Assembly: GCA_003569185.1 (NCBI GenBank)
Contig: BGOJ01000002.1
Coordinates: 1-64,000 of the forward strand
DNA length: 64,000 nucleotides
DNA from: Candidatus Planktophila sp.
GTDB taxonomy: Bacteria > Actinomycetota > Actinomycetes > Nanopelagicales > Nanopelagicaceae
Direction of reading: 5' to 3'
The position numbers and the translations under genes are program-made. Numbering within the stretch: position 1 is the stretch's first letter; each line of letters begins with the position of its first letter. Shown here piece by piece: positions 10,562 to 55,836 of this stretch. The notes beneath the pieces are model-generated. The model did not search any database, was not told the origin of the DNA, and saw only the letters and a list, made by a program, of their open reading frames with translations.

Positions 10562-11335
10562 ATGAGTAAAAGACTTGAAGGCAGAGTTGCAGTTGTAACT
10601 GGGGCTGGCAGTGGAATTGGATACGCCACCTCGGTGCGATTAGCTGCAGAGGGTGCCAAGGTAGTTGTCGCAGATACCAATGAGGTCAGTGGTAACAAGG
10701 TGGCAAAAGAGGTGGGTGGGCTTTTTGTTAAGTGTGATGTCACCAATGAGGCACAGGTAGCTAATCTTTATAAGGTCGCCTTTGACACCTACAATCGAAT
10801 TGATATCGCATTTAATAATGCTGGTATCTCACCACCTGATGATGATTCAATTTTAATTACCGGCCTAGATGCTTGGGAGCGTGTACTTAAAGTAAATACC
10901 ACCAGCGTATTTTTGTGTTGCAAAGCGGTTCTGCCATATATGCAAAAGAATAAAAAGGGATCAATTATTAATACCGCATCCTTTGTGGCAACTATGGGTG
11001 CTGCTACCTCCCAGATTGCCTACACCGCATCTAAGGGTGGGGTCTTGGCAATGAGTCGTGAGCTTGGTGTGCAGTTCGCAAGAGAGGGAATTCGGGTAAA
11101 TGCATTATCTCCTGGCCCAGTTAATACACCCTTACTGCAAGAGTTATTTGCTAAAGATAAGGAGAGAGCAGCCCGTCGGTTGGTTCATATCCCAATGGGC
11201 AGATTTGCTGATGCTAGTGAGATCGCAGCTGCGGTTGCCTTCTTAGCCTCCGATGACTCTAGTTTTATCACTGCCAGTAACTTCTTAGTAGATGGTGGTA
11301 TCTCTGGTGCGTATGTAACCCCACTTGATAATTAA
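10562..11335 (+). CDS. SDR-family oxidoreductase (possible alcohol dehydrogenase of the amine pathway)
   Basis: A 257-residue classical short-chain dehydrogenase: TGAGSGIGYATS for NAD(P) binding, the acidic residue after beta-2 in VVVADT (favouring NAD), NNAG, and the catalytic YTASKGG. An intrinsic terminator follows directly. It closes the synthetase-aldehyde dehydrogenase operon at the place where a flavin amine oxidase (PuuB) sits in the putrescine pathway. An alcohol dehydrogenase here would suit an amino alcohol such as ethanolamine, whose gamma-glutamyl derivative needs two oxidations. A generic 3-oxoacyl reductase or sugar dehydrogenase cannot be excluded. Confidence 0.85.
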   Translation: MSKRLEGRVAVVTGAGSGIGYATSVRLAAEGAKVVVADTNEVSGNKVAKEVGGLFVKCDVTNEAQVANLYKVAFDTYNRIDIAFNNAGISPPDDDSILITGLDAWERVLKVNTTSVFLCCKAVLPYMQKNKKGSIINTASFVATMGAATSQIAYTASKGGVLAMSRELGVQFAREGIRVNALSPGPVNTPLLQELFAKDKERAARRLVHIPMGRFADASEIAAAVAFLASDDSSFITASNFLVDGGISGAYVTPLDN

Positions 11336-11346
11336 AGAGTTAAATT

Positions 11347-11390
11347 AATAAGGCCCCACCAAAATATTTCGTGGGGCCTTATTTTTATTT
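11347..11390 (+). terminator. Intrinsic terminator after the SDR gene
   Basis: The stem AATAAGGCCCCAC (11347-11359) pairs with GTGGGGCCTTATT (11371-11383) across an 11-base loop and is followed by TTTATTT. It can serve the plus-strand operon and, less well, transcription from the right. Confidence 0.9.
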
Positions 11391-11487
11391 AATAAGTTGT
11401 TATGTGCGCGCAGGGCGCGGGTGGATGTCCTATTAAATCTAATTTATTAGCAAGTGCTCCCTGAAAAGTTTGAAGTAGTATGTGCAA
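11389..11487 (-). CDS. Possible 32-residue peptide with strong Shine-Dalgarno
   Basis: On the minus strand a perfect AAGGAGG (11503-11497) precedes a TTG start at 11487 with 9 bases between. The frame runs 32 codons (MHILLQTFQGALANK..., ending PPAPCAHITTY) to a TAA at 11389-11391, next to the terminator hairpin. A 13-codon frame (MATAIKMIASLKS, 11543-11502) ends inside the Shine-Dalgarno, as in coupled leader peptides. The peptide has one cysteine, a proline-rich end and no recognised family. It may be chance, but the Shine-Dalgarno is the best in this otherwise empty gap. Confidence 0.25.
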   Translation of the reverse strand: MHILLQTFQGALANKLDLIGHPPAPCAHITTY

Positions 11488-11675
11488 CTATTTCCACCTC
11501 CTTAAGATTTCAAAGAGGCAATCATTTTGATTGCAGTAGCCAAATTACTCCTTCTCAACCCACTTTGATAGATACAAAACTCTAAAAATACCTTAACTCT
11601 TTATTGATACTTTAAGCTTTTTTGCGTAATTACTTGGGCCTTCACCCGACGGGCAAAGTGGTGGAGGGTTAGATA
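11391..11675. other. Intergenic region without a clear gene
   Basis: The gap between the SDR (plus) and the DMT permease (minus, ending at 11676) is 340 bases, the longest unassigned stretch in the window. Apart from the terminator and the possible small peptide, I see a GC-rich patch (11403-11424), an AT-rich middle and a G/C-rich patch at 11636-11669. There is no tRNA shape, no known riboswitch core and no long frame. Confidence 0.6.
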
Positions 11676-12506
11676 TTAATTAAGCGCAATGATGGCTAAG
11701 GCAGCAGTTGATGCGGCGATTCCTAGCCAGTTGGTAATTGAGGGTTTTTGGTGCAACAACTTTATGCCAATTAAAGAGGCTAAGGCTGGAGCTGATGCCA
11801 TAAAGATTCCCACCTTACTTAAATCTAAGTTGTTAATTGCAATCAGAAAAAACATATTTGCCACAACTTCAAATGTTCCAGAAAGTAGTGCGTACTTGGC
11901 ATAGCCATTTGCCCTACTTACCTTATTTTTTGGTGGAAAGATAAAAGTCAAACAAAAAACACCAATCCGGGCACCAAATAAGGCTCCGAGTATCTTGGAG
12001 TTTTCAATCTCAGTCATTAAAAAGGAGAAGCCAGAAAAGAAGGTGGCTGCACTTGCCGCTAGGAAAAAACTTTGCCAGGTAATCTTTTGATTACCAGCTG
12101 TTGGCCGAGAACAGAGGTAGATACCTAGGCCACCTAGCGCTGCTGCAATCGGAAAGGTTACTGATAATGATTCATTTTTTACGATCACGGCAAAGAGAAT
12201 TAAAAATAGTGATTGGGTTAATGCCACAACTGGGGAGACAAATGAGACCGCCCCAGTTGAGATCGCCTTATAGATGAAGGGAAGACCTAACCCGCCGATA
12301 AAGCCGGCGGCGATGCCAATTAAGACCACCTGAAGGGTGATGGTATTTAGATTAAAGAGGATTACTACCGAGATAATTGCCATCGCAATTGAGCTAGAGG
12401 CACGTAATGTGTTGCGCCAACTGGTTATCTGAGTTGATTTACCGCCAAGGGTGTTGGTGAAGGCATTTGCTAGTGCATTAGAAAATGAGGCGATCTCACC
12501 AATCAT
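11676..12506 (-). CDS. DMT-superfamily (EamA-like) transporter
   Basis: A 276-residue, very hydrophobic protein with about ten helices in two similar halves. The first half is followed by GLGLPFIYKAISTGAVSF and a proline-containing helix (VSPVVALTQ), and the second ends with LSKVGIFMASAPALASLIG; this repeat is typical of EamA/DMT permeases. It is the last gene of the gntR operon, 11 bases after the SDR. It may export or import a small metabolite of that pathway; direction and cargo cannot be told from sequence. Confidence 0.8.
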   Translation of the reverse strand: MIGEIASFSNALANAFTNTLGGKSTQITSWRNTLRASSSIAMAIISVVILFNLNTITLQVVLIGIAAGFIGGLGLPFIYKAISTGAVSFVSPVVALTQSLFLILFAVIVKNESLSVTFPIAAALGGLGIYLCSRPTAGNQKITWQSFFLAASAATFFSGFSFLMTEIENSKILGALFGARIGVFCLTFIFPPKNKVSRANGYAKYALLSGTFEVVANMFFLIAINNLDLSKVGIFMASAPALASLIGIKLLHQKPSITNWLGIAASTAALAIIALN

Positions 12507-12517
12507 TATTTACTTAA

Positions 12518-13282
12518 TTACTTTGCGTTGATATCTGAATCAAATTGAAATAGTGAGCAGCCACCATCTGCTAGTAAAACTGTGCCAGTTATGTAATCAC
12601 CAGCTGATGAGCATAAGAAGCCCACCACATCAGCAACCTGATTTGCAGTTTGAAATTCACCAAGGGGCACAACTTTGCCAGCACGCTTTGCATAAACAGG
12701 ATCTGTTTTAAGTAACGCACCAGCCATGCCAGCTTTAACAATTCCTGGGGCAACTACATTTACCCGAATGCCATGTACTCCAAGCTCTCTTGCCATTTGT
12801 TTTGCCAACATTTCAAGTCCTGCCTTTGAAACGGTGTATGCGGTGATCTCAGGCCAAGGAACTGAGCCAACCCAGGAGCCGGTAAAGACAATACGTCCAG
12901 CTGTTTTATTTTTAATGAAATGCTTAGCGGCCACCTGTCCAAGAATAAAGTTTGCAGTCAGATTTACATCCAGGGTGTTTTGCCAAAAAGCGGGGTCAAT
13001 ATCAACAAAGGGTGCGGTTCCGCCCACACCAGCATTGCCAATTACGCAATCAAGTGGTGCACCAGAGTTAATCAGATTGGTAACCGCTGCCTGATCACAT
13101 AGATCTAGAGCAACCGCTTTGATTCGCCCATGATCTGCTGGGGCGTATCGTTTTAATATTTCAGATTCTGGTTTGATATCAACTGCAGTAATAGTTGCAC
13201 CCTCATCTAGAAAGTGTTGAACAATCGCTGTGCCAATATCACCGCCAGCACCGGTTACTAATACATGTTGTGATTTACTCAT
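12518..13282 (-). CDS. SDR-family sugar/sugar-acid dehydrogenase
   Basis: A 254-residue short-chain dehydrogenase with TGAGGDIGTAIV for cofactor binding, Asp after beta-2 (TAVDIK, favouring NAD), GNAGVGG, and the YTVSKAG catalytic Tyr/Lys pair. The ending GTVLLADGGCSLF is the usual SDR C-terminus. It lies in an operon with a GH127-like glycosidase and an enolase-superfamily dehydratase, so oxidation of a free sugar to a lactone or aldonate is a natural guess: the dehydratase would then remove water from the aldonate. This order is inference. Confidence 0.85.
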   Translation of the reverse strand: MSKSQHVLVTGAGGDIGTAIVQHFLDEGATITAVDIKPESEILKRYAPADHGRIKAVALDLCDQAAVTNLINSGAPLDCVIGNAGVGGTAPFVDIDPAFWQNTLDVNLTANFILGQVAAKHFIKNKTAGRIVFTGSWVGSVPWPEITAYTVSKAGLEMLAKQMARELGVHGIRVNVVAPGIVKAGMAGALLKTDPVYAKRAGKVVPLGEFQTANQVADVVGFLCSSAGDYITGTVLLADGGCSLFQFDSDINAK

Positions 13283-13295
13283 TATCTAATGAAGC

Positions 13296-15224
13296 CTATC
13301 TCGCCTGTGGAAATGCCGTCCAACGCAAAACGGTAGTTCCCATCGGCACTAGTTTGACCTTGTTAAAGGCCTCTACATCCAAGCCTTCATCTGCGTGTGG
13401 GTTTAGATTCCAACAATTTGTAGAGATTGAAATACTTGGTTGATCACTCCAGGGATAGCTTCCTGCAGGCGGTGTGGTGCGCTCTAGCTTTGCCGTAGCA
13501 AGATCTGCCTTTCGAAATGCTGGTGGAAAGATCCATTTTGCATTTACTGCGGTTACATCTTGATCGGCATAGCCTGGAAGTTTGTACTCTCGGTAATCAG
13601 TTGCCACATGTGCAATTGGTGCTGAGAAAACCAATGGACCAACATCAAAGACATATCTGCCATCAGATATGGTGCGCTGAGTTAACTCTTGTGGCAGATC
13701 TAGCTCAACCTTTGAATCAGAGCCCCAAGTTGCGGTAACTTGAAAACGATCAGCTAACTGAATCTGCTTAACATCTTTAGCGCCACTTACTTTAATTGTT
13801 GCCTTCTTACACCAGGCCGGGATTCGAAACTCTGCTGTGAAGGTTAACTCTGGCGCACTGATGTGAGCAGTAATTCGCTCTTCAAATGGATATGAGGTCA
13901 CCTGTTTAATTGAGACCTCTTTGCCCTGCATTTGTAAAGTTGCTGACATCGCTCCGTAAAGTTGAAAACTTATTAGATCATCGGCCTGGGCAAGCATTCG
14001 CCTTGCGAAGATCGGCAAGATCTTGCCGGCATTTGGTACACAGCAGACCGCCACATCATCATGGGTGGGTGAGATGTCCCAACGTGTTCCCATTTGATGA
14101 GTTGCTGCTGGTTGATTTTGTGCCAAGCAGTAGACAGTTCTTCTGCCATCATTTGTAACAGCTGCTTGGAAATCATTTAGGAAGAGTTTTTCGGCCAAAT
14201 CAAGGTAGTGGAAATCACCAGTTAATCTCACCGCTTCAAGAAGGGTGATAATCATTTCAAACATAGTGCAGATCTCATACCCATTTTCTGGAAGTGGTAT
14301 GCACTCAATGCCAGGCAGTGATATTTGTTCATCACTTTTAACTCCGCCACCAATACCAATTGCCCGTTCAATCTTTAACATGCCATTTTTAAATGCCTTT
14401 AAATACTGCTCATCTCCTAGATGTTCTGCCAGTGCTAGTGGCACCCGCAAAAACTCAACGGCGTGAGCGCCATGGCCAACAATTGGCTCATCAGAGAGCA
14501 GTGTTTGCAGTTGTCCATCAGTTTCATGCCAATCCATTATTCCAATTGAGTAATCGGCATATAACTCTTTGCCAAACTCAGCAAATCTTAAATCACCAGT
14601 TTGTCTGCTTTGCTCCGCTAGTGCGTCCATAAACATAAGATCATGGCCGGCGCCACAAGAATCTCCAGAGGGTGCGTTAAAGCGCAGATTCTGATCTGAC
14701 TTTCGATAGCGATCGATGGTGTAATCCAATGCCTTAGATACACAATCTCTAACTTTATTATCATCTGTGTAATCTGCCCACAGCTGCAGTGCCAAGATCG
14801 CTCTGCTTTGGGTCCAAAGATCTCCCACAATAAAGTTTCGGCTAGCACGCGCCTCTGCGGTAAACATTCCGATGTAACCATCAGATCCTTGGGTAGCAAG
14901 AATTCGATTTAAATAAGTTCTTACCTGTTCAATCTCTGAGGTTTTGCCATGAAGTAATACATGTCCCATCCAACCGATCAGCCAATTACCTTCACTCTCA
15001 CCATTCCACCACTCAACTTTGGCCACATTATTTCCAGTGCCATAAGCTGATTTAAGACCAAGTTGGCCGCTAGCAAAGACATCACTCCACACCTCTTTGC
15101 TAATTAATGGCAAAGAGCCGATGAAACCTTTCATCGCTAGTGATGATTGTTGCTCCAGCCAGCCTTCGATTTTAATTGCGTTAATTGGAATCGGTTTATA
15201 GATGGCGCGGTTGCTCTTGGTCAT
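13296..15224 (-). CDS. GH127-like glycoside hydrolase (DUF1680 family)
   Basis: A 642-residue protein with the GH127/DUF1680 layout: an (alpha/alpha)6 barrel for about 400 residues, then beta-sandwich segments. Supporting stretches are GLKSAYGTGNNVAKVEWWNGESEG near the N-terminus (as two pieces), NEGYI-like GSDGYIGMF, and DVAVCCVPNAGKILP, corresponding to the family's conserved Cys-Cys-x-Pro-Asn region, where cysteines bind zinc and one acts as nucleophile in characterised beta-L-arabinofuranosidases. No signal peptide is seen, so it works in the cytosol on an imported glycoside. It sits in an operon with an SDR and an enolase-superfamily dehydratase. The sugar released is unknown; arabinose or another pentose is only a family-based guess. 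Confidence 0.78.
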   Translation of the reverse strand: MTKSNRAIYKPIPINAIKIEGWLEQQSSLAMKGFIGSLPLISKEVWSDVFASGQLGLKSAYGTGNNVAKVEWWNGESEGNWLIGWMGHVLLHGKTSEIEQVRTYLNRILATQGSDGYIGMFTAEARASRNFIVGDLWTQSRAILALQLWADYTDDNKVRDCVSKALDYTIDRYRKSDQNLRFNAPSGDSCGAGHDLMFMDALAEQSRQTGDLRFAEFGKELYADYSIGIMDWHETDGQLQTLLSDEPIVGHGAHAVEFLRVPLALAEHLGDEQYLKAFKNGMLKIERAIGIGGGVKSDEQISLPGIECIPLPENGYEICTMFEMIITLLEAVRLTGDFHYLDLAEKLFLNDFQAAVTNDGRRTVYCLAQNQPAATHQMGTRWDISPTHDDVAVCCVPNAGKILPIFARRMLAQADDLISFQLYGAMSATLQMQGKEVSIKQVTSYPFEERITAHISAPELTFTAEFRIPAWCKKATIKVSGAKDVKQIQLADRFQVTATWGSDSKVELDLPQELTQRTISDGRYVFDVGPLVFSAPIAHVATDYREYKLPGYADQDVTAVNAKWIFPPAFRKADLATAKLERTTPPAGSYPWSDQPSISISTNCWNLNPHADEGLDVEAFNKVKLVPMGTTVLRWTAFPQAR

Positions 15225-15256
15225 GATCTATTTACCCTTCGAGTTATTTGGTTCGC

Positions 15257-16432
15257 CTAGTTGGCAAACTTTGCCGCGGAGGTAAATGTTGCGGTTAAAT
15301 CTGTACCCAGGCCAGGCTCACTGCCCAGCGAGAGCTTGCCATCAGCAATTGTTGGTAGCGCACTCACAATCATTGGATACCAGGTGCGAAGACTTGCCCT
15401 TGAGGTCTCCTGCACTAGCGCGTTATCAGATGCGGTAGAAAGTTGAGCGCCAGCAATTAAACCAATTGGCCCTGAGCAATCATGGGGGGCAATTGTTTTG
15501 CCATACTTTTTTGTTGCCTGCGTGAATTTAATACCCTGGGTAAAGCCACCACACCAACCAAGATCTAAGGTGAGCACATCGATGTAATCATTTTTAAGCA
15601 ATGCGTTAACGCGGGTCATGCTAGAGACTGTCTCACCATGGGCGATTGGGGCATACCCTTTGCCGCGCAAGATTGCGTAATCATCTAGTAGATCTGCATA
15701 GATTGGATCTTCAATCCAGGTTAAATTCAAATCCTTTGTTGCCTCAAATATCTTCTTTGCTGCCACCGGTGACCAAAGTGCGTGCAGCTCCAGCATTAAC
15801 TGCATCTTTTCCCCAACAGCATCCCTTACCTTCTGTAGTGGAATTAATCCTTTTTTTAGATCTTCATCTGATATATCTGCGCCATTATTTTTTTCAGCAT
15901 AGATATCAAATGGCCAGATCTTCATGCCACCAATTCCTTCTGCCTGTAATGTTTTAGCTAATGCACCAGCATCAGTTAAGAATGCTTGTAAATCTTCATA
16001 CTTATCATTATCAGCTGAGATTCCCCAAGCTGAACTATCTTGATCTGATTTGCGCATATAACCTCGGCCTGCGCAGGTGTTATAAATTGGTAACGCTTTG
16101 CTTGATCCACCAAGTAATTGATAGATCGGTTTGCCCTCAACCTTTCCTTTGATATCCCAAAGTGCGATATCAACAGCGGACTTTGCCCGCATCTCAGCTC
16201 CAGATGATAAGGCGCCAACGTAGGTGGTTAATTTCCGGCTGATGTTTTCAATATTTGCTGGATCTAATCCAATCAAGGTTGGCGCAACAAACTCTTCCAC
16301 AAATGTGGCAACAGTTCGGCCAAAGTAGTAGCTCTCACCAATGCCATAAACCCCAGCATCAGTACCAATTTTCACATAGATGATATTTGGAAAATCTGCA
16401 TGAACAAAACTTTCAACAGTAGTTATCTTCAT
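15257..16432 (-). CDS. Enolase-superfamily (mandelate racemase/galactonate dehydratase-like) sugar-acid dehydratase
   Basis: The start at 16432 (MKITTVESF) is chosen because the family begins there; a longer frame upstream from 16510 only reads through the end of the gntR gene. The protein is about 391 residues: N-terminal capping domain (YGIGESYYFGR), the alanine-rich AVDIALWDIKGK entry to the barrel, then metal ligands in MLELHALW, WIEDPI and AHGET. APHDCSGPIGL carries the histidine used as base in the galactonate dehydratase-like subgroups. It probably removes water from an aldonate to give a 2-keto-3-deoxy acid. It starts 4 bases after the gntR stop, so the two are coupled. The substrate is not fixed by the residues I can see. 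Confidence 0.8.
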   Translation of the reverse strand: MKITTVESFVHADFPNIIYVKIGTDAGVYGIGESYYFGRTVATFVEEFVAPTLIGLDPANIENISRKLTTYVGALSSGAEMRAKSAVDIALWDIKGKVEGKPIYQLLGGSSKALPIYNTCAGRGYMRKSDQDSSAWGISADNDKYEDLQAFLTDAGALAKTLQAEGIGGMKIWPFDIYAEKNNGADISDEDLKKGLIPLQKVRDAVGEKMQLMLELHALWSPVAAKKIFEATKDLNLTWIEDPIYADLLDDYAILRGKGYAPIAHGETVSSMTRVNALLKNDYIDVLTLDLGWCGGFTQGIKFTQATKKYGKTIAPHDCSGPIGLIAGAQLSTASDNALVQETSRASLRTWYPMIVSALPTIADGKLSLGSEPGLGTDLTATFTSAAKFAN

Positions 16433-16436
16433 AGGG

Positions 16437-17225
16437 TTATCGAAGGATATCCATATGGTAATTTTTAAGGGCTGAGTCCAAAACCTCATGAATTGATCGA
16501 GAGCCACCAAAGGTCTGTTGCACTACTCGATCAGCTAAGACGGAGAGTGCGACATCAAAATCTTTATCGTAGGTATCCTCGGCAATATGAAGATGCTTTG
16601 ACATCGCTGCTACCGCTTTATCTGGATCCTTATCCTTTATTGCGCTCAATATCTTGCGGTGCAGGGGAGCTCCTTGGGCAAAGGTTTTGGAATCTGCCAG
16701 GGAGCGCAACATAATTTCAAAGGTCAAGGTGGTAATTGAGCCAAAGACAATTTGTAATACCGGATTTTGGGTAGCTTTTGCAATCAGTGAGTGAAAGGCA
16801 ATATCTGATTCAGCTCTTGGTAGTAACTCAGTTGCATTATCAAAGGCAGTAAGTGCTAGCTCTAACTGGGCAATATCATCCTCAGTTGCTCTAATCGCTG
16901 CTAAGTAAACAGTTTGCTCCTCTAAGTTAATACGTGCCTCAATTAAATCTCGGGCGGTAGCAGCAGATTGACGCAATGTGGTGTGAACATTTTTAGCGGT
17001 ATCTAACATATGTGGTTTTCTAATAAATACACCCTTGCCAGGTACGGCCTTTATTAATCCCTGTCTTTGCAGACCTGCTAAAACCTCACGTAAAAATAAT
17101 CTTGATACCCCATACTTTTCAGCCAAAATTCTGGCGGAGGGCATTAGGCCATTACTACTTTGATCTCCCAATACATACTTAGTGGTTAACTCTCTTGCTA
17201 ACTCATCTTGGCTAAGTGTTGGCAT
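16437..17225 (-). CDS. GntR-family transcription regulator (FadR/FCD subfamily)
   Basis: A 262-residue regulator. The winged helix-turn-helix covers residues 8-70 (SARILAEKYGVSRLFLREVL, then LQRQGLIKAVPGKGVFI). An all-helical FCD domain follows, with the ARINLEEQTVYLAA start and the metal-ligand pattern Asp...His...His (SDIAFHSLIAKATQNPV, HRKILSAI, MSKHLHIAEDTY). FCD regulators usually bind a sugar acid or organic acid and then release DNA. It is the first gene of the minus-strand operon and faces the ABC importer gene at 17490, so it probably controls both directions. A set of CAGAC repeats at 17441-17463 is a candidate operator. Confidence 0.9.
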   Translation of the reverse strand: MPTLSQDELARELTTKYVLGDQSSNGLMPSARILAEKYGVSRLFLREVLAGLQRQGLIKAVPGKGVFIRKPHMLDTAKNVHTTLRQSAATARDLIEARINLEEQTVYLAAIRATEDDIAQLELALTAFDNATELLPRAESDIAFHSLIAKATQNPVLQIVFGSITTLTFEIMLRSLADSKTFAQGAPLHRKILSAIKDKDPDKAVAAMSKHLHIAEDTYDKDFDVALSVLADRVVQQTFGGSRSIHEVLDSALKNYHMDILR

Positions 17226-17489
17226 CTACATCTCCTTGGAGTTAACTGGCAGGGCGGGCAGATTCTTACCGCTTTTCTGGGCGCCCGGTTGTAAGTAGCT
17301 ATTTGATCGCGCAAATATCCTCGCCGCTACCACTTTTTCTACGTAATTTTGCTCTGTAAGTAACACTTTGGTTACCTCACCATCCGATCCTTTTTTGCTA
17401 TTGACAACTGATGCAGAGGAGAGAAGTATCGCCGACTAATCAGACCTATCAGACAGGTCAGACTACTAGGAAATAATAGGAGTGTAAAT
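17226..17489. promoter_or_regulatory. Divergent control region of gntR operon and ABC importer
   Basis: This 264-base gap separates two divergent transcription units. On the plus strand TTGACA (17401-17406) is a good -35 box, and AAGTAT (17424-17429) lies 17 bases further as a weak -10. Three CAGAC repeats follow at 17441-17463. A Shine-Dalgarno-like AATAGGAG ends about 7 bases before the ATG at 17490. Confidence 0.6.
17441..17463 (+). promoter_or_regulatory. Candidate GntR operator: CAGAC repeats of 9-base period
   Basis: CAGAC occurs at 17441-17445, 17450-17454 and 17459-17463, exactly 9 bases apart, and GACCT...AGGTC forms a 5-bp inverted repeat inside them. The site lies just after the putative -10 box of the importer gene, where a bound repressor would block transcription. 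FadR-family operators often contain GTC/GAC half-sites, so control by the adjacent GntR protein is plausible but unproven. Confidence 0.45.
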
Positions 17490-18491
17490 ATGAAAAGCAA
17501 ACACAAAGCATCGGCTATCGCCACTGCGATGACGCTGCTAGGTTCATTAACTCTTGCGATCACCGCAGCTGCACCTGCAAGTGCTGGCACATGGTGTTCT
17601 GGAGTTAACATAAGTTATTTTAAAGGCGGAACTGCTGATTCCTTCTCCGATATCTTGGAAAAGGGCGCAAAGCAGGCTGCTGCTGATACTGGTGCAAATG
17701 TCACAATCATTTCATCAAACTGGGATTTCCCACTGATGGTGCAAAAATTTAAAGAGGAAATAGCTAAGAAGCCAGATGCAATCTCATTCATGGGTCACCC
17801 TGGTGATGCTGCAATTCAACCATCTGCAAAGGCTGCAAAGGATGCTGGAATTCTTGTTGATTTCTCAAACGTTCCTGCACCTAAGTCAATTGCTACTGTA
17901 AATGGTGGATTCACTGGTGCAAATCTGCTGCTAATGGGTAATAACTTAGCTGCAAGAGCTGTTAAAGACTTCGGTTTGAAGAAGGGTGACGAGGCAATCG
18001 TAATTGGAACCTTCGGCGTACCTGGACGTTCTGATCGCGAAGATGGCACCGTTAATACATTAGTAAAAGCTGGAGTTAAGGTAACAAAGCTTGATCTTAA
18101 GGTATTTCCTGGAAATGCTGCTGGAGATCCAAACTTAGTTACACCTACGCTAACTGCAAGTATTATCAAGAATAAGAATCTGAAGCTAATTGTGGCTGCC
18201 GGTCCAATTCTTGGAAATATGAACAATTACTTCGCCGCTGCAAAGCTTGAGGCAGGAAAAGTTAAGGTTGCAGGATTTGACCTTGGCGAGACTGTACTTA
18301 AGGGTTTTGCAGATGGTTACATTCAGCTAAGTGCTGATCAAGAGCCATTTAAGCAAGGCTACATGCCAATTATTTCTCTATGCCTAGCCAAGCAATACGG
18401 CTTAGGACAAACTAGCGTCGACACCTCATCAGGTTTCGTTACAACCGCTAACTACAAGACAGTCGCAGCGCTTCCAAAAGGATTCCGCTAA
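17490..18491 (+). CDS. CUT2-type ABC transporter sugar-binding protein
   Basis: A 333-residue secreted protein: positively charged N-terminus, a hydrophobic helix and a signal peptidase site after APASA (about residue 32). There is no lipobox cysteine at the cleavage site. The mature part is a periplasmic-binding-protein type 1 fold (SFSDILEKGAKQAAAD, KPDAISFMGHPGDAAI, VKVAGFDLGETVLKGFADG), as in ribose-type importers. It is followed by a strong terminator and then the ATPase and permease genes, an arrangement that gives more binding protein than transporter. The ligand is unknown; the neighbouring glycosidase genes suggest a sugar or small glycoside. Confidence 0.88.
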   Translation: MKSKHKASAIATAMTLLGSLTLAITAAAPASAGTWCSGVNISYFKGGTADSFSDILEKGAKQAAADTGANVTIISSNWDFPLMVQKFKEEIAKKPDAISFMGHPGDAAIQPSAKAAKDAGILVDFSNVPAPKSIATVNGGFTGANLLLMGNNLAARAVKDFGLKKGDEAIVIGTFGVPGRSDREDGTVNTLVKAGVKVTKLDLKVFPGNAAGDPNLVTPTLTASIIKNKNLKLIVAAGPILGNMNNYFAAAKLEAGKVKVAGFDLGETVLKGFADGYIQLSADQEPFKQGYMPIISLCLAKQYGLGQTSVDTSSGFVTTANYKTVAALPKGFR

Positions 18492-18505
18492 GACCTAGGT
18501 AAAAC

Positions 18506-18549
18506 TTGAGCAGGCAGATTTCCCTCCTACTGCCTGCTCAATTTTCATT
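18506..18549 (+). terminator. Intrinsic terminator/attenuator after the binding-protein gene
   Basis: TTGAGCAGGCAG (18506-18517) pairs perfectly with CTGCCTGCTCAA (18530-18541) across a 12-base loop, followed by TTTTCATT. Its position inside the transport operon suggests partial read-through to the ATPase. Confidence 0.9.
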
Positions 18550-18590
18550 ATTGCTAGACAACTCAACTAATAGAGAGTTTGATAATACCT

Positions 18591-19352
18591 GTGAGTAATG
18601 AACCAATTGTTAAGTTAGTAAATGTCAATAAGTCCTATGGCAATGTGTATGCCCTAGAGGATATAAATTTAGATTTTTATCCAGGCGAGATTGTCTCCCT
18701 AGTTGGTGATAACGGTGCTGGTAAATCCACATTAACCAAGATCATCTCCGGTACTGAAGGACCAGATACCAATGGAAAGATCATTGTTGATAACAAAGAA
18801 GTAACCAATTGGAGCTCAGCAAAGGCTAGAGCAAGAGGAATTGAAACGGTTTATCAAAATCGAGCACTCTCTGAACAACAATCAATTTATGACAATGTAT
18901 TTTTAGGAAGAGAGATCACCAATCGATTTGGTTTTATCAACCGCAAGAAGGAGATCGAAGAGACTGAAACCTTAATGCGAAAGATTGGTTACACCTCAAA
19001 GGTTTGGACACCATTATCATCAGTTAATAAATTATCTGGCGGTGAACGCCAAGGCGTTGCAATCTCTAGAGCAATCTTATTTGAATCTAGATTAGTAATT
19101 TTAGATGAGCCAACTACTGCAATGGCCTTAACTGAGGCAGCAGAGGTTTTGGAGTTTGTTAGCAACTTAAAGAAATCTGGCAAATCTGTAGTTTTCATCA
19201 GTCACAATCCATGGGATGCCCATGCAGTGGCAGATCGATTTGTAATTTTAGAACGCGGAAAAATTGTTTTTGATGGACCAAAGGGCTCGATGAGTGCTGA
19301 TGATTTCATCGCACTCTTACATAAATTTGCGAAGAAGGATATTAAGTCATGA
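18591..19352 (+). CDS. CUT2-type sugar ABC transporter ATPase (single domain)
   Basis: About 253 residues with Walker A GDNGAGKST, the ABC signature LSGGE, Walker B LVILDEPTTAM and the switch histidine in SHNPWDAHAVADRF. It has one ATPase domain, as in FrcA-type importers, not the fused pair of RbsA. I chose the GTG at 18591 because the only purine-rich stretch (GAGAG, 18573-18577) is 13 bases upstream; a TTG at 18579 would add four residues but sits too close to it. The last 4 bases overlap the permease start (ATGA), so they are translationally coupled. Confidence 0.88.
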   Translation: MSNEPIVKLVNVNKSYGNVYALEDINLDFYPGEIVSLVGDNGAGKSTLTKIISGTEGPDTNGKIIVDNKEVTNWSSAKARARGIETVYQNRALSEQQSIYDNVFLGREITNRFGFINRKKEIEETETLMRKIGYTSKVWTPLSSVNKLSGGERQGVAISRAILFESRLVILDEPTTAMALTEAAEVLEFVSNLKKSGKSVVFISHNPWDAHAVADRFVILERGKIVFDGPKGSMSADDFIALLHKFAKKDIKS

Positions 19353-20326
19353 GTGAGAAGAAAAAAGGTATTTTAATTCCAGAGCGATATAAACCCGTCT
19401 TAGGCGCATTTATATTTTTCGTTGTCATGTTATCTGCTTTTATAGCTTCATCACCAGATGTATTTTTAAGTATCGGCATTTACTCTGCGGTTTTTTTATC
19501 TCTACCTCTCTTTGCAATTATGGGGTTAAGCCTGGTCTTTGTAACTGCAGCCGGTGAGATTGATCTAGCCTTTCCATCGATCATCCCACTATCAGGATTA
19601 GCCTTTGCCTGGACCTTGCAGCAAACTAACTTAAACTTTCTTCTGGCAACAATTTTTTCAGTTGTGGTGGGAATATCCTGTGGTTTATTAAATGGTTTTC
19701 TAGTCACAAAACTAGGTCTTTCCTCTTTGATTACAACTTTAGGCATGAACTTTGCCTTGATTGGCTTATGTAATGTTTTAAACAATGGTGCAGTTAGAAC
19801 CTTTGAAGAATTAAACGATACGAGAATTAAATCGATTTTAGTTGGATCTTTTGGGCCAATTCCAGCACAAATGTTTTGGATGGTTTTAATTTCTTTGGTG
19901 TTGGGAATGATCTTCCACCGACATAAATTTGGTCTACATGTGCGAGTTGCAGGAGATAACCCAGAAGCAGGTCGTGCGATGGGTGTAAATATTGAGCGAA
20001 CAAAAATTCTCTGCTTTACATTAGTTGGGTTATGCGCATCAATTGTTGGCATCCTAGGAATTCTGTTGCTCAGCACTTACTTCTCCACAATGGGTGAGGC
20101 TTATCTGCTACCGGTTCTAGCTGCTGTCTTTGTTGGTGGCACACCAGTTACTGGTGGCAAGGGAACAATTGGTGGCTTAGTAATTGGAGCTACCACTGTG
20201 GTCTTTATTCAAACTGGTGTGGTTGCTGCCGGCCTAGATGGTCATTGGACTTCACTAGGTTTTGGATTAGTAATTGTCCTTTCACTCCTTGGTCATAGAA
20301 AATTCTCTGGGCGACTAACTAGATAA
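19349..20326 (+). CDS. CUT2-type sugar ABC transporter permease
   Basis: A 325-residue membrane protein of the BPD_transp_2 family with 8-10 helices. Family stretches are VTAAGEIDLAFPSIIPL, the coupling region GDNPEAGRAMGVN and FVGGTPVTGGKGTIGG. It forms the membrane channel for the binding protein and ATPase encoded just upstream; with one permease gene it probably acts as a homodimer. The GH13-like gene starts 5 bases later in the same operon. Confidence 0.88.
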   Translation: MSEKKKGILIPERYKPVLGAFIFFVVMLSAFIASSPDVFLSIGIYSAVFLSLPLFAIMGLSLVFVTAAGEIDLAFPSIIPLSGLAFAWTLQQTNLNFLLATIFSVVVGISCGLLNGFLVTKLGLSSLITTLGMNFALIGLCNVLNNGAVRTFEELNDTRIKSILVGSFGPIPAQMFWMVLISLVLGMIFHRHKFGLHVRVAGDNPEAGRAMGVNIERTKILCFTLVGLCASIVGILGILLLSTYFSTMGEAYLLPVLAAVFVGGTPVTGGKGTIGGLVIGATTVVFIQTGVVAAGLDGHWTSLGFGLVIVLSLLGHRKFSGRLTR

Positions 20327-20331
20327 TTTTT

Positions 20332-22560
20332 GTGAAGTTACATCACTTAGAATCAAATCATCAATTTGAAGTTGATGATAAAAGTGGATTACTTACTGGC
20401 CTTACCTACACATCTGGGGCTGGGGTAAGAACTGTTAGTTTTGAAACTACCTTAAATATTCAAACAGGTGGTGGTGAAAAGCGTGCTGCAACTGGTGGAC
20501 TTGAGTACTTTGATTGCAAAAATCAATCACAGGTTTTAAGTAAGGGTGCGCCAATTTATGGCCAAGGCTTTAATGGCATCTCCTGGCATCAGCCAATAAG
20601 TATTGGTGAGGTTAAGGCTGAGTTAATCTATCGATTAGATCGACAATCAGCATCTGCTGCTCTTGCTATCTGGTTTCCAGGTGGGCAGGAGGTATTAATT
20701 CGAGATATCAATCTGGTATTTAATATTAAATTACCAGCAGATAACTGGATAGTTAATATGCCTGGAAATGGGTTGCGAAAGGATGTGCCGATCTCAATTC
20801 TTAATACTGAGGTTGGTATCTCACCAGTTGGTGGCCTTCGTGGCTCTAGCTCAGTAATTCATTTAGGATCAAAAAACAATGGCCAGCTTGTGATCTGGCC
20901 AAATAATCGAGTTGAGATTCCGCAATTAACCTTAAAAAATAATGGCGATAATCAAGTGCAGTTAAAGATTGATACCAACTTTGGCTCTGATCTATCTGTA
21001 GTTTCAGGTGTTGAGATTGAGATTGCAAAGTTTGATCTTTCATCTCCTGCCTATGACCAATTTGCACCAATCTTTCAAGATTGGATGAGGCGAGATGGTT
21101 ATGTCTCACCAAATAATCCACCAAAGTGGATTGATGGCGCGATGATCTATGAGGCACAGATTGGTTTTTCAGTTTTTAATGAGGTTAATAAATACTCGCC
21201 ATACCCGCAGGTGCGAGATTTAATTAATGATTTAGATCAGATTGCCGAGTATGGCTTCACCTGTATTCAATTGATGCCAAAGCAGCCATATCCAAGTTAT
21301 AACATCCATGATTTTTGGGATATTGATACCTCCTATGGCAATAAGGCTGAGATTAAAGAGTTAGTGACAAAGGCGCACAAACTTGGGATTAAGGTAATTT
21401 TAGATATCTTGCTACATGGCGTATTAGATAAAGAGATTATTAAGATCGCAGCTGATGGGGTAAGAAGTGGACCATTTGCGGAGTTAATTTCATCAGAGAC
21501 GGGTGATAGCTTTAATGCCGATGTTAAGGATTGGCATAATTACTTAATTGCTTGGTCTCGTCATATTTTAGATTTTGAAAAGTATTGGTATGAGGGAAGT
21601 CCTGCAGTATCACCATTAATTGCACAGCATCCAGATTGGTTTTACACCGATTCAAAGGGTGAAGTGCAAGGTGTCTACACCAAAGCCTTTGATGCCAGAA
21701 GTAGTAGTTGGCAGGATTACTTTATTTCTGCTTGTGAGTTTTTAATGAATGAATTAAATATTGATGGCTTTAGATTTGATGCCCCTTCCTACAATGATTT
21801 TCCAAATTGGGCCAGCTGGGCACGGGGTAGAGCAGGAGCATCCGCCCTTGGTTGCCTTGGATTATTTGATCGATTACGTCCAGTAATGAAAAAGATTAAC
21901 CCACAATCTTTGTTATATACCGAACCATCTGGTCATGTATTTAGACAGGCGATGGATTTAAATTACAACTACGATGAACAGTGGTTGGTAACTGCAATTT
22001 CTGACCCTTCTGCTCAATCTGCTTGGGGGATAAGAGGAGCACGGGAGTTAGCTGCCTGGGTGGCAGAGCGCGATAAGTTTTTACCAGCAGGATCTTTAAC
22101 CGCCCACCACATCGACTCGCATGACACATTCTGGTGGCCAAGTTGGGGTAAAAAATGGCGACGTGAACAATTTGATATTACAAAGGTAAAGCTTTTAACT
22201 CTTATCTTTGGCTCACTGCCTGGTCCATTTATGATGTTTTCCGGCGGTGAGATAGGAATTGAACAACTTCTACCTAAACTTGCCAGCGTTAAGCGGTCAA
22301 AGATTTGGTTGACTGGTGAGATCTCTTGGTGGTGTTCATCAAATTACCCAGATGGCTTATTTGCAATATCACGAAAACTAGATGGCAAGGTTAGCGCCAG
22401 CTTAGTTAACTTCACCGATAAAGAGTTGGTGGTCAAAAATGAAGCAAATTACCAAATTGAATCTGTATTACTACAAATCGGAGATCAGATTACAATTGAC
22501 TCGTCCTTAATAAAACTGCCACCATTTACGGGAGCAGTTGTTGAAGTTGAGATTGGCTAA
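20332..22560 (+). CDS. GH13-like (alpha-amylase superfamily) glycosidase, cytosolic
   Basis: A 742-residue protein starting with GTG. The first 250 residues are beta-rich and unassigned (GEKRAATGGLEYF, NSL-like loops). A TIM barrel follows, with ELVTKAHKLGIKVILDI and the GH13 region II DGFRFDAPSYND (nucleophile Asp near 482), region III LLYTEPSG (acid Glu near 530) and region IV HHIDSHDTFW (Asp near 596), so the catalytic triad is complete. A small C-terminal beta domain ends the protein. There is no signal peptide. It lies in the importer operon and so should act on a sugar brought in by it. It is not close to any amylase, trehalose or sucrose enzyme I can name. Confidence 0.78.
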   Translation: MKLHHLESNHQFEVDDKSGLLTGLTYTSGAGVRTVSFETTLNIQTGGGEKRAATGGLEYFDCKNQSQVLSKGAPIYGQGFNGISWHQPISIGEVKAELIYRLDRQSASAALAIWFPGGQEVLIRDINLVFNIKLPADNWIVNMPGNGLRKDVPISILNTEVGISPVGGLRGSSSVIHLGSKNNGQLVIWPNNRVEIPQLTLKNNGDNQVQLKIDTNFGSDLSVVSGVEIEIAKFDLSSPAYDQFAPIFQDWMRRDGYVSPNNPPKWIDGAMIYEAQIGFSVFNEVNKYSPYPQVRDLINDLDQIAEYGFTCIQLMPKQPYPSYNIHDFWDIDTSYGNKAEIKELVTKAHKLGIKVILDILLHGVLDKEIIKIAADGVRSGPFAELISSETGDSFNADVKDWHNYLIAWSRHILDFEKYWYEGSPAVSPLIAQHPDWFYTDSKGEVQGVYTKAFDARSSSWQDYFISACEFLMNELNIDGFRFDAPSYNDFPNWASWARGRAGASALGCLGLFDRLRPVMKKINPQSLLYTEPSGHVFRQAMDLNYNYDEQWLVTAISDPSAQSAWGIRGARELAAWVAERDKFLPAGSLTAHHIDSHDTFWWPSWGKKWRREQFDITKVKLLTLIFGSLPGPFMMFSGGEIGIEQLLPKLASVKRSKIWLTGEISWWCSSNYPDGLFAISRKLDGKVSASLVNFTDKELVVKNEANYQIESVLLQIGDQITIDSSLIKLPPFTGAVVEVEIG

Positions 22561-22561
22561 T

Positions 22562-23275
22562 ATGAAAACTGTAGTTATCACCGGCGCAGCTGGTGGCATG
22601 GGCAGCGCGACTGCCACTTTGTTTAAATCAAAGGGCTATCAGGTACTAGGAACTGATCGCGAAGATATCACCGGAGTTGATTTTCAAGTAGTGGGTGATG
22701 TTGCCGATGAAGTGACCTGGCAGAAAATATCTACGGTAATTGAGCAAAACAAGCTAGAGATCTCAAGCCTTATTAATATCGCAGGAAGAAATTACTTTGA
22801 TCTGATTACTGAGGCTAAAAAGAGTGAATGGCTAAATATGTTTGAGGTTAACGTGGTGGCGATGGTGATGGGCATAAAACATATGACGCCATTTCTTCGC
22901 AAAGCAAAAGCAGCCAGTATTGTAAATATGAGTTCAATCTCTGCCCAGATTGGCACCTCAGGATATGCCGCATATGTGGCAACTAAGGGCGCGGTTGATT
23001 CACTGACTAAGGCGTTAGCACTTGAGTTAGCACCTGAGATTCGCATAAATGCAGTTGCACCCGGTTGGATTGAAACACCATTTACCGTTGCCGGCCTAAA
23101 TCTAACTCCAGATCCAGTTGCTCACCGAAAAAAAGCTGAGCAAATGCATGCCCTAAATCGGGTTGGTACACCTGAGGAGATCGCAAAGGTTATTTACTTT
23201 CTTGCCAGCGAAGATTCTTCCTTTGTAACCGGTTCAATTGTGACCGCAGATGGTGGATATTTAATTAAGAATTAA
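22562..23275 (+). CDS. SDR-family oxidoreductase
   Basis: About 237 residues from the ATG at 22562, one base after the GH13-like stop; a frame starting 24 bases earlier lies inside that gene and is not preferred. TGAAGGMGSATA binds the cofactor, the GTDRED stretch after beta-2 favours NAD(P) selection by an acidic or basic residue, and INIAGRN replaces the usual NNAG. YVATKGA holds the catalytic Tyr/Lys and GSIVTADGGYLI ends the fold. It completes the importer operon and probably oxidises the monosaccharide freed by the glycosidase. Confidence 0.83.
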   Translation: MKTVVITGAAGGMGSATATLFKSKGYQVLGTDREDITGVDFQVVGDVADEVTWQKISTVIEQNKLEISSLINIAGRNYFDLITEAKKSEWLNMFEVNVVAMVMGIKHMTPFLRKAKAASIVNMSSISAQIGTSGYAAYVATKGAVDSLTKALALELAPEIRINAVAPGWIETPFTVAGLNLTPDPVAHRKKAEQMHALNRVGTPEEIAKVIYFLASEDSSFVTGSIVTADGGYLIKN

Positions 23276-24632: not shown

Positions 24633-25790
24633 TTACAAAGAGGAGCCATAAAGACGGGAGAGATTAAACTCATGGTGTCCACCAATCTCTGCCTTTGTTA
24701 ATTGACCATTAGCAACATCTAAAATTAAGTTATAGATCTCTTGCCCATTCTCTTCCAAAGTTTGGGTGCCATCGGCGATGGTGCCGGAGTTTAAATCGAT
24801 AATATCTGGGATAGCAGTTGCCATCTCAGTATTAGTTGCCACCTTAATTGTTGGCATTACCGCACTTCCCGTAGGAGTTCCTCGACCGGTTGTGAAGACG
24901 GTGATGTTGACACCGGCTGCGCCAAAACCAGTTAACTGTTCAATGTCATGACCTGGTGTGTCCATGAAGTAGAGACCTGCCTTTGTTGGCGCAATTGCAT
25001 ACTCCAGCACACCAGTAAATTGGGCATTACCTGCCTTCTTAGCAGCTCCTAATGATTTCTCTTCAAGTGTGGAAAGGCCGCCCTCAATATTTCCTCTAGA
25101 TGGTTGGGCGCCTCTGATATCTATTCCTTCATAATTAATACTTGCTTCATACCTTGCCACTACATCAATTATTTGTTGGCCAACCTCTTTAGTAATTGCC
25201 CGCTTTGCTAATAGATGCTCTGCGCCCAAGATCTCCATCGTCTCACCAAGTATTGATGTGGCGCCCTGTTCAACTAATTTGTCACTTGCCACCCCCAACG
25301 CTGGGTTAGCGGTAATGCCAGAGTAGGCATCCGAGCCACCACACTCAAGCCCTAAGACAATTGCAGAGATTGGCGCTGCAACTCTTTGTTCACTCTTAGC
25401 CTGCAGAAGTAATTTATTAGCCTCAGTAATACCAGCTTGGGTTAATTTATCTAAGGATTTTAATTCAGAGAGTGATATTTCAATTAACTTTGTCTTGCCA
25501 TAACTTTTTGCCCTGCTGATTACCTCATCCTCAATTGGTGTGCCAAGGCGTAACAAGATGGTGGCGTAAAGATTTGGATTTGTCGCATTTCCTGCCAATG
25601 AGTGAATTATCCGCTCATGATCCTTCTCATTTACCTGCGACCAATCATGGCTTACTGCAACTGCGCCCTGTGATTGCTCTTCAATATCTCTAGCTGCCGC
25701 CGATAAAATCTGATGAAGGGGCAGGATCAAAACATGGTTTCTAAAACCCCATCTGCCATCACTTCGTTTATAACCGGTAAGGCTCATCAC
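24633..25790 (-). CDS. UxaA-family dehydratase subunit (altronate/galactarate dehydratase-like), large
   Basis: A 385-residue protein of the altronate/galactarate dehydratase C-terminal family. It begins GYKRSDGRWGFRNHVLILP; LGLECGGSDAYSGITANPALG contains the Cys of the metal or Fe-S site, and FMDTPGHDIEQLTGFGAAG and FTTGRGTPTGSAVMP are strongly conserved. With the separate SAF-domain protein encoded two genes upstream it should form a dehydratase acting on a hexonate, hexarate or similar hydroxy acid. It is the last gene of the minus-strand operon. A second, shorter paralogue precedes it and overlaps it by 4 bases. Confidence 0.85.
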   Translation of the reverse strand: MMSLTGYKRSDGRWGFRNHVLILPLHQILSAAARDIEEQSQGAVAVSHDWSQVNEKDHERIIHSLAGNATNPNLYATILLRLGTPIEDEVISRAKSYGKTKLIEISLSELKSLDKLTQAGITEANKLLLQAKSEQRVAAPISAIVLGLECGGSDAYSGITANPALGVASDKLVEQGATSILGETMEILGAEHLLAKRAITKEVGQQIIDVVARYEASINYEGIDIRGAQPSRGNIEGGLSTLEEKSLGAAKKAGNAQFTGVLEYAIAPTKAGLYFMDTPGHDIEQLTGFGAAGVNITVFTTGRGTPTGSAVMPTIKVATNTEMATAIPDIIDLNSGTIADGTQTLEENGQEIYNLILDVANGQLTKAEIGGHHEFNLSRLYGSSL

Positions 25791-26593
25791 ACACTCCTGA
25801 CCGCACGGGGTGCAACAATCTCACCAATGCCAGATACTTCACTCTTTGTTTTCTCACCATTTGCAACCTTGGTGAGAAGATCAATCATTTGAGTCACTGA
25901 TGCATCAGATTGCAGATCAAACTCAGCAGCTAACGCTGCGTGAAGTGGGGAGGTGGATGCAATATTGATAACTGGTATTAATGGAAAGCCAGAGGGTGGT
26001 TGGTTTTCATCTGCGAAGGAGAAAATAATGTGAACCTTCTTGCTCATTAATTTGGCAAGATTATGTTCACTTACTCCCTGCTTATCCTCAATCTCAACTG
26101 CAAAACCAGCTGCGGTAAGTGCGCTTTTGATTTCAGATAGATTTTCAACATTCCTGGCTAGATCTAAACCAACCACTAACTTTTCAACTGCTTTTGGCTC
26201 ACTTTTAAAGTTATCTCGTAATTGCTTTGCCTGCACCACACCCGCCTCATATGTGCCGGTGGCGCCCCCTGACTCTTGAATAACTAATAATCTAGATAAC
26301 TCTTGGTTAATCTTTGGTAGCAACTCTGGTCCTTGAATAGTTTCACAACCAAGGGATACCACCAACACTGATTGCACATTTGGATGATTTGCTAACTCAA
26401 TAAAGAAGTTATCCACCCCTGGCACATCAATACCAATAATTCCGCAACCATTTTGGTGGGCAAAGGTTAAGGCGCCAACCTCATTAGCAATCTTTCGACT
26501 GACATGGGTGGAACAAACTACTGATGGCAGGATCAATTGATGATCTCTTATGCCAACCCCACGACCCTTATGGGCAAAGCCGGTAATACTCAT
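25787..26593 (-). CDS. UxaA-family dehydratase subunit paralogue, short
   Basis: A 268-residue relative of the next protein: GFAHKGRGVGIRDHQLILP parallels the GYKR...GFRNHVLILP start, and FAHQNGCGIIGID and SLGCETIQGPEL hold cysteines at family positions. It lacks the C-terminal TGRGTPTG half. The two probably form a heteromer, as split UxaA-type enzymes such as SuyA/SuyB and related systems do in pieces. Start and stop overlap neighbours within 3-4 bases, so the three dehydratase genes are one unit. Confidence 0.8.
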   Translation of the reverse strand: MSITGFAHKGRGVGIRDHQLILPSVVCSTHVSRKIANEVGALTFAHQNGCGIIGIDVPGVDNFFIELANHPNVQSVLVVSLGCETIQGPELLPKINQELSRLLVIQESGGATGTYEAGVVQAKQLRDNFKSEPKAVEKLVVGLDLARNVENLSEIKSALTAAGFAVEIEDKQGVSEHNLAKLMSKKVHIIFSFADENQPPSGFPLIPVINIASTSPLHAALAAEFDLQSDASVTQMIDLLTKVANGEKTKSEVSGIGEIVAPRAVRSV

Positions 26594-32939: not shown

Positions 32940-32940
32940 T

Positions 32941-33939: not shown

Positions 33940-33941
33940 TG

Positions 33942-55714: not shown

Positions 55715-55836
55715 TAGGTCATGAGTCTTAGTTCATAGCCCCGGCTAACTAAGCGGCAACCCTCCACCACGGTGGGGTGCTCCGGGTGAAGACCAGGTCG
55801 ATAGCAAGGTGCCATCGGCAAGTGTGGGTCGATAAA
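55715..55836 (+). ncRNA. SAM-IV riboswitch
   Basis: The sequence carries the conserved SAM-IV core: GGTCATGAGT, then GCCCCGGCTAAC, GCGGCAACCCTCC, CGGTGGGGTGC and CCGGGTGAAGACC, with the first GGTC pairing with the final GACC, then a downstream pseudoknot segment. It lies just before metY and metX, the usual targets. SAM binding would lower expression. An intrinsic terminator follows at 55840-55865. Confidence 0.92.

Follow-up and report, generated by a model that had tools for sequence, protein, structure and literature searches.

Glycoside hydrolases (GHs) of family GH13 are defined by a catalytic triad of Asp on strand β4, Glu on β5, and Asp on β7 (PMC9781549), and the catalytic barrel of GH101 has been described as similar both to GH13 and to the GH129 enzyme NagBb (PMC8106489). 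In the textbook CUT2 sugar importer the ATPase is a fusion of two nucleotide-binding domains (PMC11212667). In fresh water the acI actinobacteria rank among the most abundant bacteria; what is known of their nutrients comes mostly from generic names of transporters, e.g. 'xylose' or 'ribose' (PMC5574706). Here we describe a locus in a 64,000-nucleotide stretch (the window) of contig BGOJ01000002.1 from Candidatus Planktophila sp., a small-genome freshwater actinobacterium whose closest named relatives are Nanopelagicaceae/acI genomes, e.g. SCGC AAA027-J17. Two divergent operons, which flank a 264-bp promoter region probably controlled by a GntR regulator, encode a CUT2-like importer, a GH13-like enzyme, and several putative oxidative enzymes. 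With a probability of roughly 0.6, this system takes up a small α-glycoside, cleaves it inside the cell, and degrades it oxidatively; it offers a concrete, testable nutrient route for acI actinobacteria.

The GH13-like enzyme appears, from its predicted structure, to be an undescribed type of amylase-family enzyme with an apparently new combination of domains. The full-length AlphaFold2 (AF2) model (pLDDT 82, pTM 0.86) divides into a beta-supersandwich (residues 1-262), a GH13-type barrel (~263-660), and a beta domain (660-742). PF00128 matches residues 297-645 at 55.2 bits against a cut-off of 22, profile matches are to GH13 only, and a fold search aligns residues 241-742 to GH13 enzymes with Z ~26-28 over 315-390 residues (root-mean-square deviation, rmsd, ~3). 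The complete catalytic triad claimed in the initial annotation is present as D483, E531, and D598, invariant in all relatives covering those positions, and in the AF2 model these residues lie at or just after strands 479-483, 527-530, and 590-594. The statement that the protein could not be placed in a subfamily also holds among the curated models searched, as no GH13 subfamily (NCBIfam equivalog) model is passed and the best reaches 42.7 bits against a cut-off of 577 (GlgB). A search of a plasmid collection returned only distant GH13 matches and no relative of named function.

Two conserved regions of the barrel are unusual. Region I reads D-[IV]-x-[LMI]-H-G in all relatives (DILLHGV in the window) in place of the canonical GH13 DxxxNH, with the H-G pair identical in 19/19 sequences, and region II ends A-P-[ST]-[YW]-N. 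Compared with the canon, region I is either off in spacing by one residue or has His changed to Gly. The argument that loss of this His proves a sugar without an O6 contact was dropped as too strong, because with the one-residue gap of one alignment His could be conserved. Judged from sequence, the change in region I is a departure from the canon and no ground for excluding the protein from GH13.

Residues 1-262, noted initially as an unusual beta region of ~250 residues, are predicted when folded alone (pLDDT 89) to form a beta-supersandwich as in GH36, GH97, and GH129 rather than a GH13-type module. The region aligns to the Flavonifractor galactosaminidase 8x1b (Z 17.6, rmsd 4.0, 238 residues), to GH129 NagBb 5wzn (Z 16.3, rmsd 3.7, 230 residues), to GH97 SusB-type enzymes (Z ~16), and to GH36 α-galactosidases (Z ~14), the matches of the predicted model to GH36, GH97, and GH129 ranging over Z 13-17.6. 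For the full-length model, the best Foldseek matches are to the Flavonifractor galactosaminidase, followed lower down by GH36 enzymes alongside GH13 neopullulanases. By sequence profile the N-terminal region has no significant match among solved structures, and the protein has no Pfam match to GH36, GH97, or GH129 at E 0.01. Within this domain, G47, E49, G55, G56, R124, G171, and E195 do not vary in the sequences that cover them, which would fit a role in the active site. The region thus appears to have a known fold, but one joined here to a GH13-type catalytic domain.

Relatives of the enzyme are distributed patchily across three phyla. Sixteen sequences align over the whole length (actinobacteria, Deinococcales, and one Anaerolineae metagenome-assembled genome, MAG), and three more distant relatives come from one Chloroflexota, one Deinococcota, and one Propionibacteriales-order genome. 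Within the order Nanopelagicales the enzyme occurs in 11/201 genomes, three of these being contig-edge fragments, while 396 sampled genomes of the phylum contain none besides the window genome. It was found in 3/111 genomes of a Deinococcota sample and in 2/199 and 2/197 of two others. In Nanopelagicales loci with available flanks (compared loci are labelled L and a number) the importer, GntR, enolase-family, and SDR2 genes are mostly kept, and the order SBP-ATPase-permease-GH13-SDR2 (SBP, substrate-binding protein) with divergent GntR-enolase persists in loci whose GH13-like proteins share 54-92% identity. L006 and L007/L073 have 99.9% identical DNA over 8 kb in two MAGs of different genera, which by sequence would reflect misbinning or a very recent transfer.

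The enolase-superfamily gene is a constant partner of the GH13-like gene in most relatives. The genes named in the initial annotation are present at their claimed positions and in their claimed families, with profile matches to Peripla_BP_4, ABC_tran, BPD_transp_2, PF00128, and GH127 domains; the enolase-superfamily gene and two SDR genes had been overlooked. The enolase-superfamily product has N- and C-terminal MR_MLE domains, matches 2pod (E 1e-98) with ExH, EDP, ET, and PHD motifs in common, and so carries the metal-ligand motifs of a sugar-acid dehydratase. Attempts to name the hexose from this protein failed, as the ManD, galactonate, and gluconate models score alike and all below cut-off for the window protein (ManD, 165.5 vs. 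550 bits; galactonate, 153.4 vs. 311). The L065 dehydratase passes the galactonate dehydratase cut-off (332 vs. 311 bits). On sequence grounds gluco, galacto, and manno forms are all candidates for the released hexose.

The dehydratase gene is often accompanied by genes for an SDR, a lactonase, a 2-keto-3-deoxy-sugar kinase, and a KDPG aldolase, and the enolase and GH13-like genes recur together in Deinococcota, Chloroflexota, and one Propionibacteriales-order genome. An enolase orthologue at ≥56% identity is present in 7 genomes of the order, every one of which has the GH13-like gene (11 positives among 201; hypergeometric 1.4e-10, unadjusted and uncorrected for relatedness). A KDPG aldolase gene adjoins GH13-SDR2 in four genomes, the L005 aldolase passes the curated eda cut-off, and PfkB kinase and SGL lactonase genes lie near the cluster in L005, L006, and L016. 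The window genome has a KDPG-family aldolase located elsewhere.

These genes suggest a route in which the importer would bring a small α-glycoside into the cell, where the GH13-like enzyme would release a terminal hexose. As the initial annotation held, the N-termini of both glycosidases are unlike signal peptides; that of the SBP is signal-peptide-like (by hydropathy only). The invariant triad and the fold point to a retaining mechanism, and the supersandwich probably shapes the pocket as in exo-acting α-glycosidases. Gene content further suggests that an SDR would oxidise the hexose to a lactone, that the lactonase encoded in some relatives would open it, and that the enolase-family enzyme would dehydrate the aldonate to a 2-keto-3-deoxy sugar acid. 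A PfkB kinase and a KDPG-type aldolase, whose genes adjoin the cluster in relatives, could then yield pyruvate and glyceraldehyde phosphate.

Several observations weigh against this route. CUT2 importers are described as carrying almost exclusively monosaccharides (PMC11212667). The window cluster itself has no kinase or aldolase gene, and L014 has no recognisable partner gene near the GH13-like gene. L012, L013, and L017 are without a dehydratase nearby and have instead a sugar kinase, a cupin phosphoglucose isomerase, and a ~600-aa phosphomannose-isomerase-like protein. These ~600-aa proteins (L012:6792-8711, L013:7222-9009, L017:13147-14898) adjoin the GH13-like gene and have a long N-terminal extension; none has a Pfam match and that of L012 also has no NCBIfam match. 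Read by eye they contain what we take to be type I phosphomannose isomerase motifs (GGNLSLQVHP, IPHGTIHCSGAGSLVLEIS), and mannose is a possible product in Deinococcales.

Two further neighbours were observed. An FMN-dependent 2-hydroxy-acid dehydrogenase-like gene adjoins the enolase gene at L007:3594-4817 and L008:3008-4231, in that branch only. In L066 a large protein (11190-14420) is encoded beside the GH13-like gene, with a second enolase-family gene nearby, and from its motifs, without a search, is presumably a GH92 α-mannosidase.

The second glycosidase is GH127-like, matching PF07944 (59.1 bits) and the middle domain PF20736 (54 bits) over cut-offs of ~24. In alignments with 4qjy and 6ex6, its E317, C319, C394, and C395 coincide with what we take to be the GH127 zinc-cysteine cluster. 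In the available alignment the GH127 acid/base Glu position is occupied by S302, with a conserved D298-E299 three residues away. The aceric acid hydrolase model scores far below its cut-off (79.9 vs. 950 bits). The gene is found in 3/201 genomes of the order, all GH13-positive and all of one genus (p 1.2e-4, unadjusted), and is therefore not a constant partner, being present in 3 of the 11 GH13-positive genomes.

Comparison of loci indicates that this gene travels with SDR1. L007 and L008 have cores that are 93-100% identical; in L008 a third SDR gene (SDR3) is intact, and the GH127-like gene and SDR1 are absent. L007 has both genes, 77 and 83% identical to those of the window vs. 54-71% for the core, and only a 56-residue fragment of SDR3 (86% identical, E 4e-29). 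The core of L048 and the window is a different one; SDR3 is missing from both, with weak vestiges of it left (protein-level E 0.006 in L048). The simplest reading is that GH127-SDR1 is a lineage-specific cassette, gained twice or exchanged, which took over the SDR step; it would be a later addition that replaced another SDR, and the GH127 step may widen the range of substrates. The swap of an SDR for this cassette in two diverged operon versions is a natural experiment on the role of each gene.

The idea that two glycosidases split one substrate, as first proposed, is not supported because the GH127-like gene is inconstant and its acid/base residue unplaced. Sequential action of both enzymes on one larger glycoside is unlikely, if the best placed of the alternatives. 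The restriction of the GH127-like gene to GH13-positive genomes of the order and its presence with SDR1 beside two diverged cores agree with it, but the gene is missing from most GH13-bearing loci and Ser at the aligned acid/base position puts its activity in doubt.

Next in order, and also unlikely, is that the imported compound already has a sugar acid (e.g. a glycosyl-aldonate) or undergoes oxidation ahead of cleavage (3-keto type); either way, the cleavage product would itself be the dehydratase substrate. This would account for the two SDR genes in the cluster, for the dehydratase as the most constant partner, and for the several loci without a lactonase. Conversely, L006, L015, and L016 have lactonase genes, which suggests C1 oxidation of a free aldose, as in the route set out above.

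The importer is better called CUT2-like than textbook CUT2, because its ATPase is a single nucleotide-binding domain of 257 aa with one ABC_tran stretch. The initial naming as a CUT2 importer stands for the SBP (Peripla_BP_4) and the single RbsC-type permease (BPD_transp_2) but not for the ATPase, which is not fused. A second importer in the window (31434-34928) has the fused ATPase form. In L012, L016, L065, and by homology L013, the importer paired with the GH13-like enzyme is of CUT1 type, and in L010 a binding protein of CUT1 type is encoded a short way downstream. Glycoside import is favoured because the same enzyme pairs with CUT1 importers in other lineages. The proposal that a small glycoside is imported and split inside is supported in good part, with the genetic tie of importer to GH13-like gene holding in many lineages, but this does not extend to joint cleavage by two glycosidases.

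A third alternative, less probable still, has the importer taking up a free monosaccharide or polyol, with nothing imported being split; the substrate of the GH13-like enzyme would then be an internal glycoside, or the enzyme would be a transglycosylase. The described preference of CUT2 importers and the solved relatives of the SBP, which are monosaccharide-type with weak scores, speak for it. The CUT1 pairings speak against it, as does a distribution untypical of housekeeping glucan enzymes, with the enzyme absent from most of the order's genomes. A storage-glucan enzyme located here by chance is very improbable and was rejected, since despite a barrel nearest to maltogenic and neopullulanase-type GH13 the curated glycogen and trehalose GH13 models score far under cut-off (GlgB, 42 vs. 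577 bits), the distribution is patchy, and the catabolic partners are conserved.

Both operons may be controlled by GntR through a palindromic operator in the divergent promoter. In L006-L009 the site ACCTATCTGACAAGTCAGATAGGT, a perfect inverted repeat of 11 bp, stands ~45 bp ahead of the SBP start, at the same place as the window candidate (Table 1). The window, L048, and L003 have ACCTATCAGAC[AT]GGTCAGA at this position, downstream of a conserved TTGACA, and the candidate occurs once in the window allowing up to two substitutions. From this comparison the element is probably the GntR operator. A 12-bp palindrome upstream of the SBP gene, CTGGGCGCCCAG, was rejected as a second operator and is better read as SDR sequence and remnant, because it falls within the SDR3 coding sequence in several loci.

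The plus operon runs SBP-ATPase-permease-GH13-like-SDR2 and the minus operon GntR-enolase-family dehydratase-GH127-like-SDR1-EamA. Spacing is operon-like, with 5 bp from permease to GH13, 1 bp from GH13 to SDR2, 32 bp from GH127 to the enolase gene, and a few bp from there to GntR.

Table 1. Features of the two divergent operons, in window coordinates.
Feature	Position	Strand	Evidence
GH13-like enzyme, 742 aa	20332..22560	+	Pfam PF00128; AF2 model; fold searches; invariant triad
Substrate-binding protein (SBP), signal-peptide-like N-terminus	17490..18491	+	Peripla_BP_4; weak matches to solved sugar SBPs
ATPase, single nucleotide-binding domain, 257 aa	18579..19352	+	One ABC_tran stretch; closest curated models are sugar CUT2 ATPases
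Permease, RbsC/AraH type	19349..20326	+	BPD_transp_2; NCBIfam ribose/arabinose permease relatives
SDR2 oxidoreductase	22562..23275	+	Directly 3' of the GH13 gene in Nanopelagicales loci extending that far
GntR/FCD regulator	16437..17225	-	Profile match
Enolase-superfamily (mandelate racemase subgroup) sugar-acid dehydratase-like protein	15257..16432	-	MR_MLE N and C domains; 2pod match
GH127-like protein with conserved E317, C319, C394, C395	13296..15224	-	Profile matches; residue alignment with 4qjy and 6ex6
SDR1 oxidoreductase, co-travelling with the GH127-like gene	12518..13282	-	Profile match; locus comparison
EamA-family transporter, last gene of minus operon	11676..12506	-	Profile match; same position in L048, L003, L005
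Divergent intergenic region with faint vestige of lost SDR (SDR3)	17226..17400		Short shared nucleotide stretches only
Promoter-like TTGACA-N17-AAGTAT	17401..17429	+	TTGACA conserved in aligned loci
Putative GntR operator ACCTATCAGACAGGTCAGA	17444..17462	+	Site comparison across loci

Elsewhere the window has a SAM-IV riboswitch (55717-55830, 106 bits). An FGGY-family sugar kinase is split over overlapping open reading frames (34932-35717 and 35717-36424), its N- and C-terminal domains being separate, through either a frameshift or a genuine two-part kinase. An altronate/galactarate dehydratase-like protein is encoded by two adjoining genes (24633-26593), with two FGGY kinases, a class II aldolase, and a HAD-type hydrolase as neighbours.

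FrcBCA-like CUT2 sugar importers have a single ATPase domain, and the window importer shares with them one Peripla_BP_4 SBP, one RbsC-type permease, and one ATPase gene; it differs in being co-encoded with a glycosidase. The SDR, SGL lactonase, enolase-family dehydratase, PfkB kinase, and KDPG-type aldolase of the relatives are those of semi-phosphorylative Entner-Doudoroff and De Ley-Doudoroff pathways. Individual loci carry incomplete sets of these genes, and in contrast to those pathways the route appears to be fed by a glycosidase rather than a free sugar.

The GH13-like enzyme shares with GH13 the (β/α)8 barrel, the Asp-Glu-Asp triad on the expected strands, PF00128, and a C-terminal beta domain, and maltogenic amylase and neopullulanase-type enzymes (clan GH-H) are nearest to its barrel by fold. 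It differs in its altered regions I and II, in having a supersandwich instead of a CBM34/CBM48-type N-terminal module, and in passing no curated subfamily model. With the exo-glycosidases of GH36, GH97, and GH129 it shares the succession of N-terminal beta-supersandwich, helix, barrel, and beta domain, but it follows GH13 in its catalytic residues and barrel sequence, and identity is ~10%. The likeness to the GH101 endo-α-N-acetylgalactosaminidase is in the barrel, by description, with no sequence match of the GH13-like protein; GH101 EngBF is extracellular whereas the present enzyme is cytosolic by sequence. In the literature searched, neither a GH13 enzyme with a supersandwich nor this cluster was found described, a weak negative because few subscription journals were covered. 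Nonetheless, the combination is foreshadowed rather than wholly unprecedented, because the barrels of GH101 and GH129 are described as alike and that of GH101 as GH13-like. A bolder proposal, tentative and on balance somewhat improbable, is that the protein founds a separate GH family or subfamily linking the GH13 clan to the supersandwich exo-α-glycosidases, that with its altered region I it acts on a terminal sugar not taken by known GH13 enzymes, and that it defines a widespread, unrecognised route for the use of algal or plant α-glycosides by freshwater bacteria. The enzyme's pairing of a GH13 active site with a type of N-terminal domain known elsewhere from GH36, GH97, and GH129 bears on the relationships between these clans.

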